DNA of 39,471 nucleotides from Verrucomicrobiota bacterium (GTDB lineage: Bacteria; Verrucomicrobiota; Verrucomicrobiia; Opitutales; Opitutaceae): positions 1-39,471 of the forward strand of contig JAFEGX010000004.1 of NCBI GenBank assembly GCA_018239675.1, in the 5' to 3' direction. The notes under the pieces are model-generated. The model was given only the letters and a program-made list of their open reading frames with translations, ran no database searches and had not been told where the DNA came from. Both the position numbers and the translations under genes were made by a program. Positions 36,480 to 39,471 of this stretch are shown one piece after another; position 1 is the stretch's first letter; each line of letters starts with the position of its first letter.

Positions 36480-37163
36480 TCACCCTGACCGGAGCCGTCG
36501 CAGCATCGCCAGGCCGAGCACGCCCAGCCCGGCGAGCAGCGGGCCAACCGTCACGGGCTCGGGCACGGGGGTGAACGAGCCGAAGCTCACCATCGACGTG
36601 GTGGGAATGCTGCCGCTGTTGGCGTTCATCGAATGGAGCACGGTGAAGCCGTTCGTCGTCGTGTAGCCGCCGGACAACCCGTAGTTGTTGAGCATCGAGA
36701 ATGCGGTGCCGCTGCTGGCTCCGTAGAAGGTCATCGCGTAGGCCGTGGTGCTTTGCAGGCCGAAGCTGGCGATGTTCGGGAGATCCGCCGCGGTGAGGGT
36801 CAGCGTGAACGGCGCGCTGCTGACCGGCAGGGTGAAGGTGACGGTGTCGCTGGCGAGCGTGGTGGGACCGGCGAGCGCGCTGGTGGTGGTGTCGGTGGCG
36901 TCGTGCAGGGCGACCGTGAAGCTGTAGGTTCCGCCGGCCGTCGTGAAGCTGTAGAGGTCCATCGTCATCAGGCCGATGGAGTAGGGACCCCCGGCACCGG
37001 TGAGGAAGACGATCTGCAGCGAGGTGGGCCAGGTGTCGTACGCGGCCCCCTCGAACGTCGAGTTGCTCGTCCACGAGACGCTGGGTGTCAGGTAGGGCGT
37101 GAATTGGGCGCGGCCCGCGGCGGCGAGGACGAGGCCGAGGAGGAGCAGGCGGACGGTAGCCAT
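36480..37163 (-). CDS. PEP-CTERM sorting-domain protein
   Basis: A 227-residue exported protein of low complexity, rich in Thr, Ser, Gly and Ala. A signal peptide (MATVRLLLLGLVLAAAGRAQ) leads into a predicted beta-rich body. The C-terminus is a textbook PEP-CTERM signal: VPEP, a hydrophobic segment GPLLAGLGVLGLAML, then RRLRSG. Such proteins are sorted and processed by exosortase (EpsH) systems and end up at the surface or in the extracellular matrix. The ATG at 37163 is chosen because it begins the signal peptide. The body resembles autotransporter-like or adhesion-type repeats but I recognise no domain. Confidence 0.9.
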   Translation of the reverse strand: MATVRLLLLGLVLAAAGRAQFTPYLTPSVSWTSNSTFEGAAYDTWPTSLQIVFLTGAGGPYSIGLMTMDLYSFTTAGGTYSFTVALHDATDTTTSALAGPTTLASDTVTFTLPVSSAPFTLTLTAADLPNIASFGLQSTTAYAMTFYGASSGTAFSMLNNYGLSGGYTTTNGFTVLHSMNANSGSIPTTSMVSFGSFTPVPEPVTVGPLLAGLGVLGLAMLRRLRSG

Positions 37164-37471
37164 GGCGAGGCCGCTCCGCCGGATCCCTCGTCCGCCGCGA
37201 CCTGGGCTGCCGGATGATGGCAGGGAGCCCACCTGACGGGCGGGCGTCGGACTAAAGCGGAGGGATTGCCTCGTGTACTCCTTTGCCGCCGCGCTTTCAA
37301 TCTATTCCCGGAGCTGCCGCTCGGCAGGCAACGCCGACGGGCTTGCCGAGTCATTGTCCGAAGGGCGAAGACTGGTGGACGCTACCCGAGTCACTGCACG
37401 CCATAGGCGAGCGTAAGCTTGATTGCTGTTTGGTGCCGCCGTTCGCAGGCGTATAAAACCTGAGAGACAGT
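37164..37471. other. 308-bp gap at the start of the low-GC island, with repeat site A
   Basis: The first part should carry the PEP-CTERM promoter. CTGCCG, CT, CGGCAG (37313-37326) is a small perfect hairpin. Two words recur at the window's end: GGCTTGCCGAGTC (37340-37352) and GCGAAGACTGGTGGACG (37365-37381). From 37376 the sequence TGGACGCTAC, then TCACTG, then TTGCTGTTTGGT at 37423-37434, matches site C at 38761-38819 with identical spacing. No open frame of gene character is visible. Confidence 0.6.
37459..37471 (+). repeat. Left 13-bp inverted repeat flanking the hydrolase gene
   Basis: CCTGAGAGACAGT directly abuts the stop codon of the hydrolase gene and is a perfect inverse of ACTGTCTCTCAGG at 38778-38790. 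The pair encloses just this one gene and its 5' region. Confidence 0.65.
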
Positions 37472-38689
37472 CTACTTTTCCAGTGCCTGATAGGTCAGGA
37501 CCTTAAAGCGTTTGAGAGTGGTTTGAACCTGCGGATACCGCTGAGCGAACCAGAGACCGATCAGATCGTTCTTACGATCAATCCAGTAGAAAGTTCCGCC
37601 AACGCCCGCACCATTGAACTCACCTTTAACACTTAGATCCTCATACGCTGGAGGATCTAGCAGCACGTATCCACCGAGTCCGTGACCAAATCCCTTGCGA
37701 CCGTTTGGTCCGTCGGGCGGGAGTACGTTTAAAGGTACGTGGTTCTGCATCATGTAGTCCACCGTAACAGGGCTGAGGATGCGGTGCCCATTAAGTGTGC
37801 CACCGTTAAGCAGCATTTGGGAGAAACGCAGGAAGTCTCCGGTCGTTGAATAGAGACCTCCACTGCCCCCAACGTAGACTGGTTTGTGATCAGGGGCACC
37901 CTGGTTGGACAGGAGTTCAATGGTGTGCTGCTCATTGAGCTTGTAGCCTTTCGCGAGTCGTCCGGCTTTGTCTGCCGGAACAAAGAAGCCCGTGTCCTTC
38001 ATATCCAGTGGCCGAAACAGCCGCTCAGACAGAAAGACATCGTAAGGCTGGCCAGAGCAGACCTCGACCAAACGGGCGAGGACTTCGTAGGAGACGCCGT
38101 AACGCCAAGCCTGTCCCGGTTGATGCGAAAGCGGGACTGTTGCTATCTTCTTTACCGTGGCTGCCAAACTGAGCTGTGGACCGACGCCAGCCGCTGCGTA
38201 GCCTTTAAAATTGAACAGCCCGTCAGTGTGGGTGAGGAGTTGCCGAATGGTGATCTGGCTGGCTGCGGGCACGACTTGCGTTTGATCGCCTCCTTCAGTG
38301 GCTAGAACCTGCATATTGGCAAACTCTGGCAGATACTTCGAAACAGGTTCCTCCAGGAGAAATTTTCCCTCCTCGTAAAGCATCATCACTGCCACCGCGG
38401 TTATAGGCTTGGTCATCGATGCGATGGCAAAAATCGTGTCTGGCTGCATCGCCTTTCGGGACTCGAAGTCTTGATAACCAAAACTTCCAGAAATCACGGT
38501 CTTGCCGTGCTGCGCCACAACTATGTCTACCCCCGCGTATTCTCTATGCTCCACTGATTCCGAGATAACATGCCGAAGCCGCTCAAGCCGTTCCGACGAA
38601 AAATCAGATTGAGCAGAAGATAACGCAGGAAAGAAAAGCACGAGCCAAGCAAGGACGTGTAACGTCGTGGCTAAGGGAGTGCGGAACAT
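37472..38689 (-). CDS. Secreted serine hydrolase of the class C beta-lactamase / family VIII esterase type
   Basis: A 405-residue protein with a signal peptide (MFRTPLATTLHVLAWLVLFFPALSSAQS). It has the SxxK motif SMTK (Ser91, Lys94), a WRYGVSYEVLARLVEVCSG block that supplies the conserved Tyr, and the FRPLDMKDTGFFVP segment of this family. The final motif is weak (GVGGTFYW in place of a clear KTG), which fits an esterase or D-aminopeptidase-like enzyme better than an antibiotic beta-lactamase. Base composition is visibly lower in GC than the genes to the left, suggesting acquisition. The 13-bp inverted repeats and sites A and C surround it. Confidence 0.87.
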   Translation of the reverse strand: MFRTPLATTLHVLAWLVLFFPALSSAQSDFSSERLERLRHVISESVEHREYAGVDIVVAQHGKTVISGSFGYQDFESRKAMQPDTIFAIASMTKPITAVAVMMLYEEGKFLLEEPVSKYLPEFANMQVLATEGGDQTQVVPAASQITIRQLLTHTDGLFNFKGYAAAGVGPQLSLAATVKKIATVPLSHQPGQAWRYGVSYEVLARLVEVCSGQPYDVFLSERLFRPLDMKDTGFFVPADKAGRLAKGYKLNEQHTIELLSNQGAPDHKPVYVGGSGGLYSTTGDFLRFSQMLLNGGTLNGHRILSPVTVDYMMQNHVPLNVLPPDGPNGRKGFGHGLGGYVLLDPPAYEDLSVKGEFNGAGVGGTFYWIDRKNDLIGLWFAQRYPQVQTTLKRFKVLTYQALEK

Positions 38690-38760
38690 CGAAGAGGTAA
38701 GTGGGCGCAGGAGCCGAGGGCAGCAAGCACCTTCTCAAAATGTGGGCGCTGCGCAATGAA

Positions 38761-38819
38761 TGGACGCTACTGGGCTCACTGTCTCTCAGGGTAGAGCATG
38801 GGCGCGGTTGCTGTATGGT
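38761..38819. repeat. Repeat site C between the hydrolase and VOC genes
   Basis: TGGACGCTAC, five variable bases, TCACTG, and TTGCTGTATGGT at 38808-38819 match site A (37376-37434) in order and spacing, with conserved ends and a diverged middle. The right 13-bp inverted repeat, ACTGTCTCTCAGG (38778-38790), lies inside it. I see no canonical GTTRRRY/RYYYAAC integron core. Confidence 0.55.
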
Positions 38820-38904
38820 AGAGCAGTTACTCCAAGCGATTCCTGCAATTTTGGCGTGAAAGCCCAGTCGGTTCGTTCAACGTTCGGTGCCAAGAAAACC
38901 GCTC

Positions 38905-39279
38905 ATGAATATAGCCACGCCTCAAGTTAGGCGAATCAGTCCGATGCTCGCTGTGGCCGATATGGATACCACCCTTGATTTCTACATGAAGGTCCTTGGA
39001 TTTGAGGTCACTCTGAGGTCGCCGGACTATTCCATCGTTAATCGCGATGGGGCTACGATTCACTTCATGAGAGCTGCCAATGAAGCGGTCATGAAGGCGG
39101 TTAGAGGTCACACGGAAATCTATATTGAAGTCGCAGACATCGCATCGCTTTGGGAGCACGTGAGTCGCTTCAGAAAGGACTATCGGATTCGAGACTTATT
39201 CGATCGCGAATATGGCATGCGTGAGTTTCATATTGGCGATCCCAACGGCTGTTTGGTGTTTGTCGGACAGAAAATCTAG
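38905..39279 (+). CDS. VOC-family (glyoxalase/bleomycin-resistance-like) protein
   Basis: A 124-residue vicinal-oxygen-chelate fold protein: two beta-alpha-beta3 modules, with ISPMLAVADMDTTLDFYMKVLGFEV at the start, ATIHFMRA, EIYIEVADIASLWEHV and the closing REFHIGDPNGCLVFVG. Small VOC proteins include glyoxalases, dioxygenases and drug-binding resistance proteins; the metal-site residues do not settle which. An in-frame GTG at 38887 is an alternative start. GC content is lower than the chromosome-like genes to the left, and such genes are common in acquired cassettes. It lies between repeat sites C and B. Confidence 0.83.
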   Translation: MNIATPQVRRISPMLAVADMDTTLDFYMKVLGFEVTLRSPDYSIVNRDGATIHFMRAANEAVMKAVRGHTEIYIEVADIASLWEHVSRFRKDYRIRDLFDREYGMREFHIGDPNGCLVFVGQKI

Positions 39280-39471
39280 GCAATCACGTTGTGCTCCGCC
39301 GCGGCAGCCTTCGCCATCTGTTTCACCTTTTGCGGTCAATCGCCGACCGGGCTGAGTGGCTTGCCGAGTCGTAGCCGCTTCGAGGGTTGTGGGCACGCCT
39401 TCGTCCGCTGGACGCGGGCTCCGGCGCGGCAGTCTTCTGGCCGCTGTTGCGGCGGCGAAGACTGGTGGACG
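39280..39471. repeat. Repeat site B with a strong hairpin, cut by the window end
   Basis: GGCTTGCCGAGTC (39358-39370) and GCGAAGACTGGTGGACG (39455-39471) repeat the two words of site A, but 84 bases apart instead of 12. The extra sequence holds a long stem: CAGTCTTC with GAAGACTG, and inside it GCCGC with GCGGC around a TGTT loop. The window ends inside the TGGACG word, so the rest of the site is not seen. Confidence 0.6.

Follow-up and report, generated by a model that had tools for sequence, protein, structure and literature searches.

The window analysed here is an entire contig of 39,471 bp (C93) from a draft genome of 3.85 Mb in 148 contigs, and its right end holds a stretch with a GC content of 0.54-0.59, compared with 0.61-0.74 across the remaining window, which bears out the earlier note's description of a low-GC island. 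As that note also proposed, each interval between the repeat sites of this stretch holds a single gene: one for a serine hydrolase between sites A and C, and one for a VOC/glyoxalase protein between sites C and B (Table 1). Both units carry cargo only, with no recombinase gene. The hydrolase has no close homologue in the remaining 11 genomes of the genus, and its best relative in the family (78%) is found in G158; the relatives of the VOC protein on plasmids are distant (best about 35%). Searches of the window with Rfam and ARAGORN gave no matches. We note that a gene for a PEP-CTERM-like protein (36480-37232) lies between the MFS gene and the island, and that a tblastn search of the congeners' tRNA-Val regions did not find it.

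Within the window the motif TGGACGCTAC-N5-TCACTG is confined to 37376 and 38761, and a search of the whole host genome that allowed up to two mismatches returned the same two places only. Sites A and C are identical at 39 of 59 positions without gaps, while 200 dinucleotide shuffles of 37301-39471 gave a best pair of 36 identities and a mean of 31.9, so that the repeat words reported for these sites are indeed shared above chance. GGCGAAGACTGGTGGACG is found at 37364 and 39454, GGCTTGCCGAGTC at 37340 and 39358, and GCGAAGACTGGTGGACG has no further exact copy in the host genome. The words that A and B were said to share are thus present, although GGCTTGCCGAGTC and GGCGAAGAC belong to the left flank and fall outside the site proper. 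The two left flanks also have different counterparts, that of A matching the sequence behind an intact tRNA-Val in one congener and that of B matching the end of a unit in another.

Table 1. Features at the right end of the window
Feature	Position	Strand	Basis
Chromosomal flank left of site A, outer island border; contains GGCTTGCCGAGTC and GGCGAAGAC	37324..37372	.	82% identity over 62 bp (37324-37385) to sequence directly 3' of intact tRNA-Val in congener G003
Site A: tRNA-Val(CAC) 3'-end core (reverse complement), spacer, arm GATTGCTGTTTGGTGCC; putative attR-type border	37373..37438	+	Core 17/20 vs host tRNA-Val end; aligned with 11 other sites
Unit 1 cargo: 405-aa serine hydrolase, beta-lactamase/AcmB-like superfamily	37472..38689	-	PF00144, E 8e-65
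Site C: tRNA-Val 3'-end core TGGACGCTACTGGGCTC, spacer, arm GGTTGCTGTATGGTAGA	38758..38823	+	Core 16/20 vs host tRNA-Val end; aligned with 11 other sites
Unit 2 cargo: VOC/glyoxalase-fold protein, ~130 aa	38887..39279	+	PF00903, E 2e-10
Right end of unit 2: GC-rich, stem CAGTCTTC...GAAGACTG abutting core	39393..39462	.	91% identity over 78 bp (39393-39470) to left flank and core start of complete site L080:14242 (-) in G001; stem from folding
Site B: initial 9 nt (TGGTGGACG) of a probable third core, cut by contig end	39463..39471	+	Identical to start of tRNA-Val end; homologous place in G001 runs on into full site

The origin of the sites was traced through a related copy. A relaxed pattern search of related genomes yielded one extra copy of the site in a congener, and a DNA search with that copy led to genuine tRNA-Val(CAC) genes, in which TGGTGGACGCTAC(T/A)GGACTC is the 3' end read as its reverse complement. 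The site extends over approximately 66 nt and consists of the final 17-20 bp of the tRNA-Val(CAC) gene in reverse complement, followed by a spacer and then a conserved arm, GGTTGCTGTTTGGTTGC; 12 sites from six genomes, A and C among them, align over 66 nt without gaps. The cores of A and C match the end of the host's tRNA-Val better than that of each of nine other host tRNAs compared. Site A scores 62.7 bits against the site model R1, a score to be read with the fact that A itself is in the training set, and the model finds no copies in the host genome beyond two, both of them in the window. Site B is cut after 9 nt of its core because the window is the whole contig; in G001 the unit end to which its flank is matched runs on into a complete site, and B therefore most probably represents a third one. 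Across the aligned sites, structure conservation was limited to three weak pairs, with no double change in any of them, and when single sites were folded against shuffles the G010 copy did better (z -2.3) and A and C did no better. That copy (L053:8891-8956, on contig G010:C6) is an orphan, with no tRNA-Val beside it and a tRNA-Cys gene about 200 bp away; a scan of genome contigs returned one record, at this same locus. A scan of viral contigs with a short form of the pattern yielded six matches, which lack the arm and which we take to be due to chance.

The intact tRNA-Val gene of the host lies on another contig, C58, beside ChrA, and on its 3' side are a gene for a 393-aa tyrosine recombinase and a GNAT gene. 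Copies of the arm, both direct and inverted (GGTTGCTGTTTGGTTCG, AGCAACCAACTGCAACCAAC), are located between this recombinase and the tRNA. In 10 of 12 genomes of the genus tRNA-Val(CAC) is near gcvP-nth, often with an MFS gene, and in four of the 12 it is near ChrA; the gcvP-nth-MFS side of the host locus is the window. Because this gene order is shared among relatives, with G010 carrying one variable region that contains tRNA-Val and is flanked by MFS and ChrA, and because of the orientation of the sites, C93 probably runs into C58. Moreover, the sequence directly behind the intact tRNA-Val of G003 matches the flank of the window left of A (Table 1), as would be expected of an empty site, and we therefore take site A, on this sequence match, to be the outer boundary of an insertion in tRNA-Val. 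The tRNA-Val and island appear to be inverted between MFS and ChrA in the host (L076, G000:C58) and in G003 (L082) relative to G010 (L054).

Further repeats and single-gene units, which the earlier note had proposed to look for beyond the window, do exist, as tandem arrays in relatives. A site model based on sequence only was run on 252 genomes of the family and on a sample of 384 genomes of the class; it matched 16 of the 252 and, among the 384 genomes of the class, found no sites outside the family. With local searches added, the total comes to 41 sites in 17 family genomes. The sites stand in tandem behind tRNA-Val or its remnant, in arrays of as many as 12; a unit holds about one gene, and most units measure approximately 0.3-4 kb. 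Eight contigs have sites together with an intact tRNA-Val, and on every one of them the sites (12 in all) lie on the 3' side of the tRNA and point in the tRNA's own direction. Most array cores have a few bases that deviate from the tRNA, although some cores and arms are nearly perfect; because of these differences, many units may be immobile. The longest array, in G158, has 12 sites within 12.4 kb and 12 units of 0.5-1.9 kb, the final one ending at a degenerate tRNA-Val, and four of its units are on one strand and eight on the other. Its units carry cargo without a recombinase: an AadA-like nucleotidyltransferase, two abhydrolases, GNAT, an ECF-type sigma factor and a protein of no family, and also PadR with a CAAX-protease-like protein, APH, FMN reductase, SnoaL, an Hsp70-like protein and an esterase. 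This genome is 10.3 Mb in size with an estimated contamination of 8%, so that the array is more certain than the host to which it is assigned. Of the other arrays, that of G007:C22 has four sites, those of G001, G009 and G223 have three each, and the rest have one or two. The arrays of G007 (L052:10381), G158 (L117:18222) and G009 (L081:19854) begin at a degenerate tRNA-Val rather than at an intact gene, and in G158 an excisionase-like HTH_17 gene follows the degenerate tRNA. The relative of the window's hydrolase in G158 is on the same contig as the 12-site array, but approximately 10 kb from the array and with no site adjoining it, and we rejected it as proof that a unit had been transferred.

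Insertion or removal of units precisely at the core is most clearly indicated by differences among three genomes of genus g58, as read from their sequences. In G220 a VOC unit directly adjoins the intact tRNA-Val. The same VOC unit is present in G219 and G225, but there an additional unit of about 800 bp comes after it, which opens with core, spacer and arm and runs up to the core of the tRNA. G220 in turn has a unit of about 700 bp, absent from G225, between the VOC unit and a toxin-antitoxin unit (RelB and a weak ParE match).

The C58 recombinase resembles tyrosine recombinases weakly: it matches a PHROG integrase (E 4e-23), and it scores 22.6 bits against PF00589, which is below the cut-off. 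Against TIGR02249 it scores 20 bits, where the cut-off is 265; judged by its sequence it is not an IntI. Among 18 loci with homologues (34-92% identical) that were examined, the gene is directly behind an intact tRNA gene at 17 and, at the other, in G009, behind a remnant of tRNA-Val; C58, G009 and G208 have a recombinase beside tRNA-Val or its remnant. Four residues (Arg, Arg, His and Tyr) that we presume to be catalytic, from general knowledge of the family and without a structure, are invariant in 14 aligned copies, and the expected His of the HxxR position is Asn in all 14. No close recombinase was found beside the array in G007, G008, G011 or G158:C33, all of which are incomplete assemblies. 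In G208, a compact element of approximately 4 kb (L166:1790-5815) holds tRNA-Val, the recombinase, HTH_17, a REP_ORF2-G2P replication protein and a full site, and it is plausible that this element represents an autonomous parent.

Taken together, we consider it likely that the region is the outer part of an island at the 3' end of tRNA-Val(CAC), one that would have grown by site-specific tandem accretion of small, non-autonomous elements, mostly of one gene each. Recombination at the sites is suggested by evidence that is comparative throughout. Under this model a unit would circularise, and the 17-20 bp core of the circular element would recombine with an equal core, either that of the tRNA or that of a site already present; insertion would duplicate the core, keep the tRNA whole and add one unit between two cores, each unit retaining one core and one arm, and the reverse reaction would take out one unit. 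The arm of each unit would be a putative accessory binding site for the recombinase, which a neighbouring or visiting element would supply to the non-autonomous units. Its source could be the tRNA-proximal element of the locus (that of C58 in the host), presumably acting on these sites, and the units may also travel from cell to cell.

The resemblance to integron cassettes pointed out in the earlier note survives as a functional analogy, in that conserved sites lie between one-gene units, relatives have longer tandem arrays and there is a tyrosine recombinase at the locus. Membership is another matter. An integron or CALIN, in which cassettes bounded by attC are moved by an IntI integrase, would account for tandem one-gene units with integron-like cargo, and true integrons do occur in other genera of the family: at L026, L027 and L028 (G016, G024 and G030) there are integrases over the cut-off, duplicated cassettes and long arrays of attC-like repeats, with about 20 repeats each in L027 and L028. 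Those arrays do not resemble A, B and C, however, and we rejected the reading of the three sites as attC. No integrase exceeds the TIGR02249 cut-off in the 12 genomes of the genus, the sites have no RYYYAAC...GTTRRRY pair and no conserved fold (the sole candidate pair in the window, at 38875-38932, is away from the repeats and folds weakly), their core is a tRNA end, and their cargo lies in both orientations, all of which make an integron extremely improbable. It is also very unlikely that a dispersed repeat, REP/MITE-like or derived from a tRNA, happens to flank two foreign genes: the G010:C6 copy does lie far from any tRNA-Val, but the host has two copies only, both in the window, the sites keep a consistent side and direction behind tRNA-Val, copies of the arm lie beside the recombinase, and units are inserted exactly at the core. 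We give hardly any credence to an artefact of assembly or binning, even though the contig ends within a site and the draft is fragmented, since the site and its architecture recur in 17 independent genomes and the MFS-gcvP synteny with congeners is unbroken up to the island.

The main rival is that the units are decayed, immobile remnants (CIMEs) of larger elements that inserted successively at tRNA-Val and shrank by deletion. The divergence of cores and arms at A and C, the degenerate tRNA-Val at the ends of the arrays in G007, G009 and G158, and the fuller element in G208 all accord with such decay. Nevertheless, the units follow a similar plan, with one intact gene in most of them, related genomes differ in the presence or absence of single units exactly at the core, and some arms and cores are nearly perfect, and we think decay unlikely, if a serious contender. 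Accretion of small elements might, in its strongest form, amount to an independent and still active gene-capture system parallel to integrons, in which a tRNA-targeting tyrosine recombinase acts in trans on minimal cassettes of one gene, each with no more than a tRNA-derived core and a single arm, that are gained, lost and exchanged within and between genera; we regard this as possible and put it forward tentatively. If the arrays are active, the family would have a second route besides true integrons for collecting single genes, such as those for transferases, hydrolases and toxin-antitoxin pairs, with a known landing place and a simple site of about 66 nt, and ordinary tRNA-targeting integrases would have converged on integron-like arrays. 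The site model makes such arrays searchable, whereas integron finders based on attC would miss them.

Systems of the same general kind are known. CIMEs formed by tandem accretion at tRNA genes are mainly decayed ICEs or IMEs beside a functional element (PMC5704250), and they share with the arrays a tandem order of elements with copies of the tRNA 3' end between them, units with no recombinase of their own and a tyrosine recombinase elsewhere in the locus (here on C58, if the join to the window is correct). By comparison, most units here measure approximately 0.3-4 kb and hold about one gene, as many as 12 follow one another, and their core-plus-arm site is uniform. In the ssrA islands of Dehalococcoides many tandem islands stand behind one RNA gene, many without an integration module, and a 20-bp 3'-end repeat with a conserved motif adjoining it bounds each island (PMC3146451); those islands are larger, their target is tmRNA and their recombinases are the serine recombinases DsiA and DsiB, whereas the target here is tRNA-Val and the recombinase matches tyrosine-recombinase families. 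Additive flexible genomic islands with tRNA-fragment repeats are reported for Ca. Actinomarinales (PMC7771536) and Ca. Methylopumilus (PMC10872708), and the available portions of these reports describe no arm motif, no recombinase tied to the repeat and no consistently one-gene unit. Tycheposons, as portrayed in PMC10872708, likewise have a tRNA border, a tyrosine recombinase and variable cargo, but are elements of 4-200 kb, as opposed to the small tandem units described here. Integrons share the tandem, mostly one-gene units between conserved recombination sites and similar classes of cargo, and differ in their recombinase, in the boxes and fold of attC, in lacking a tRNA-derived site and in the orientation of the cargo, which here runs both ways. 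Compared with the open-access subset of the literature that was searched, what is new here is the combination of one-gene units, long arrays and a uniform core-plus-arm site. Another feature to set beside the known systems is the spread of the recombinase family over many tRNAs, its neighbours at loci L158-L175 including Val, Ala, Pro, Met, Arg and others; at the tRNA-Met recombinase locus of G076, a site-like repeat lies approximately 15 kb away.
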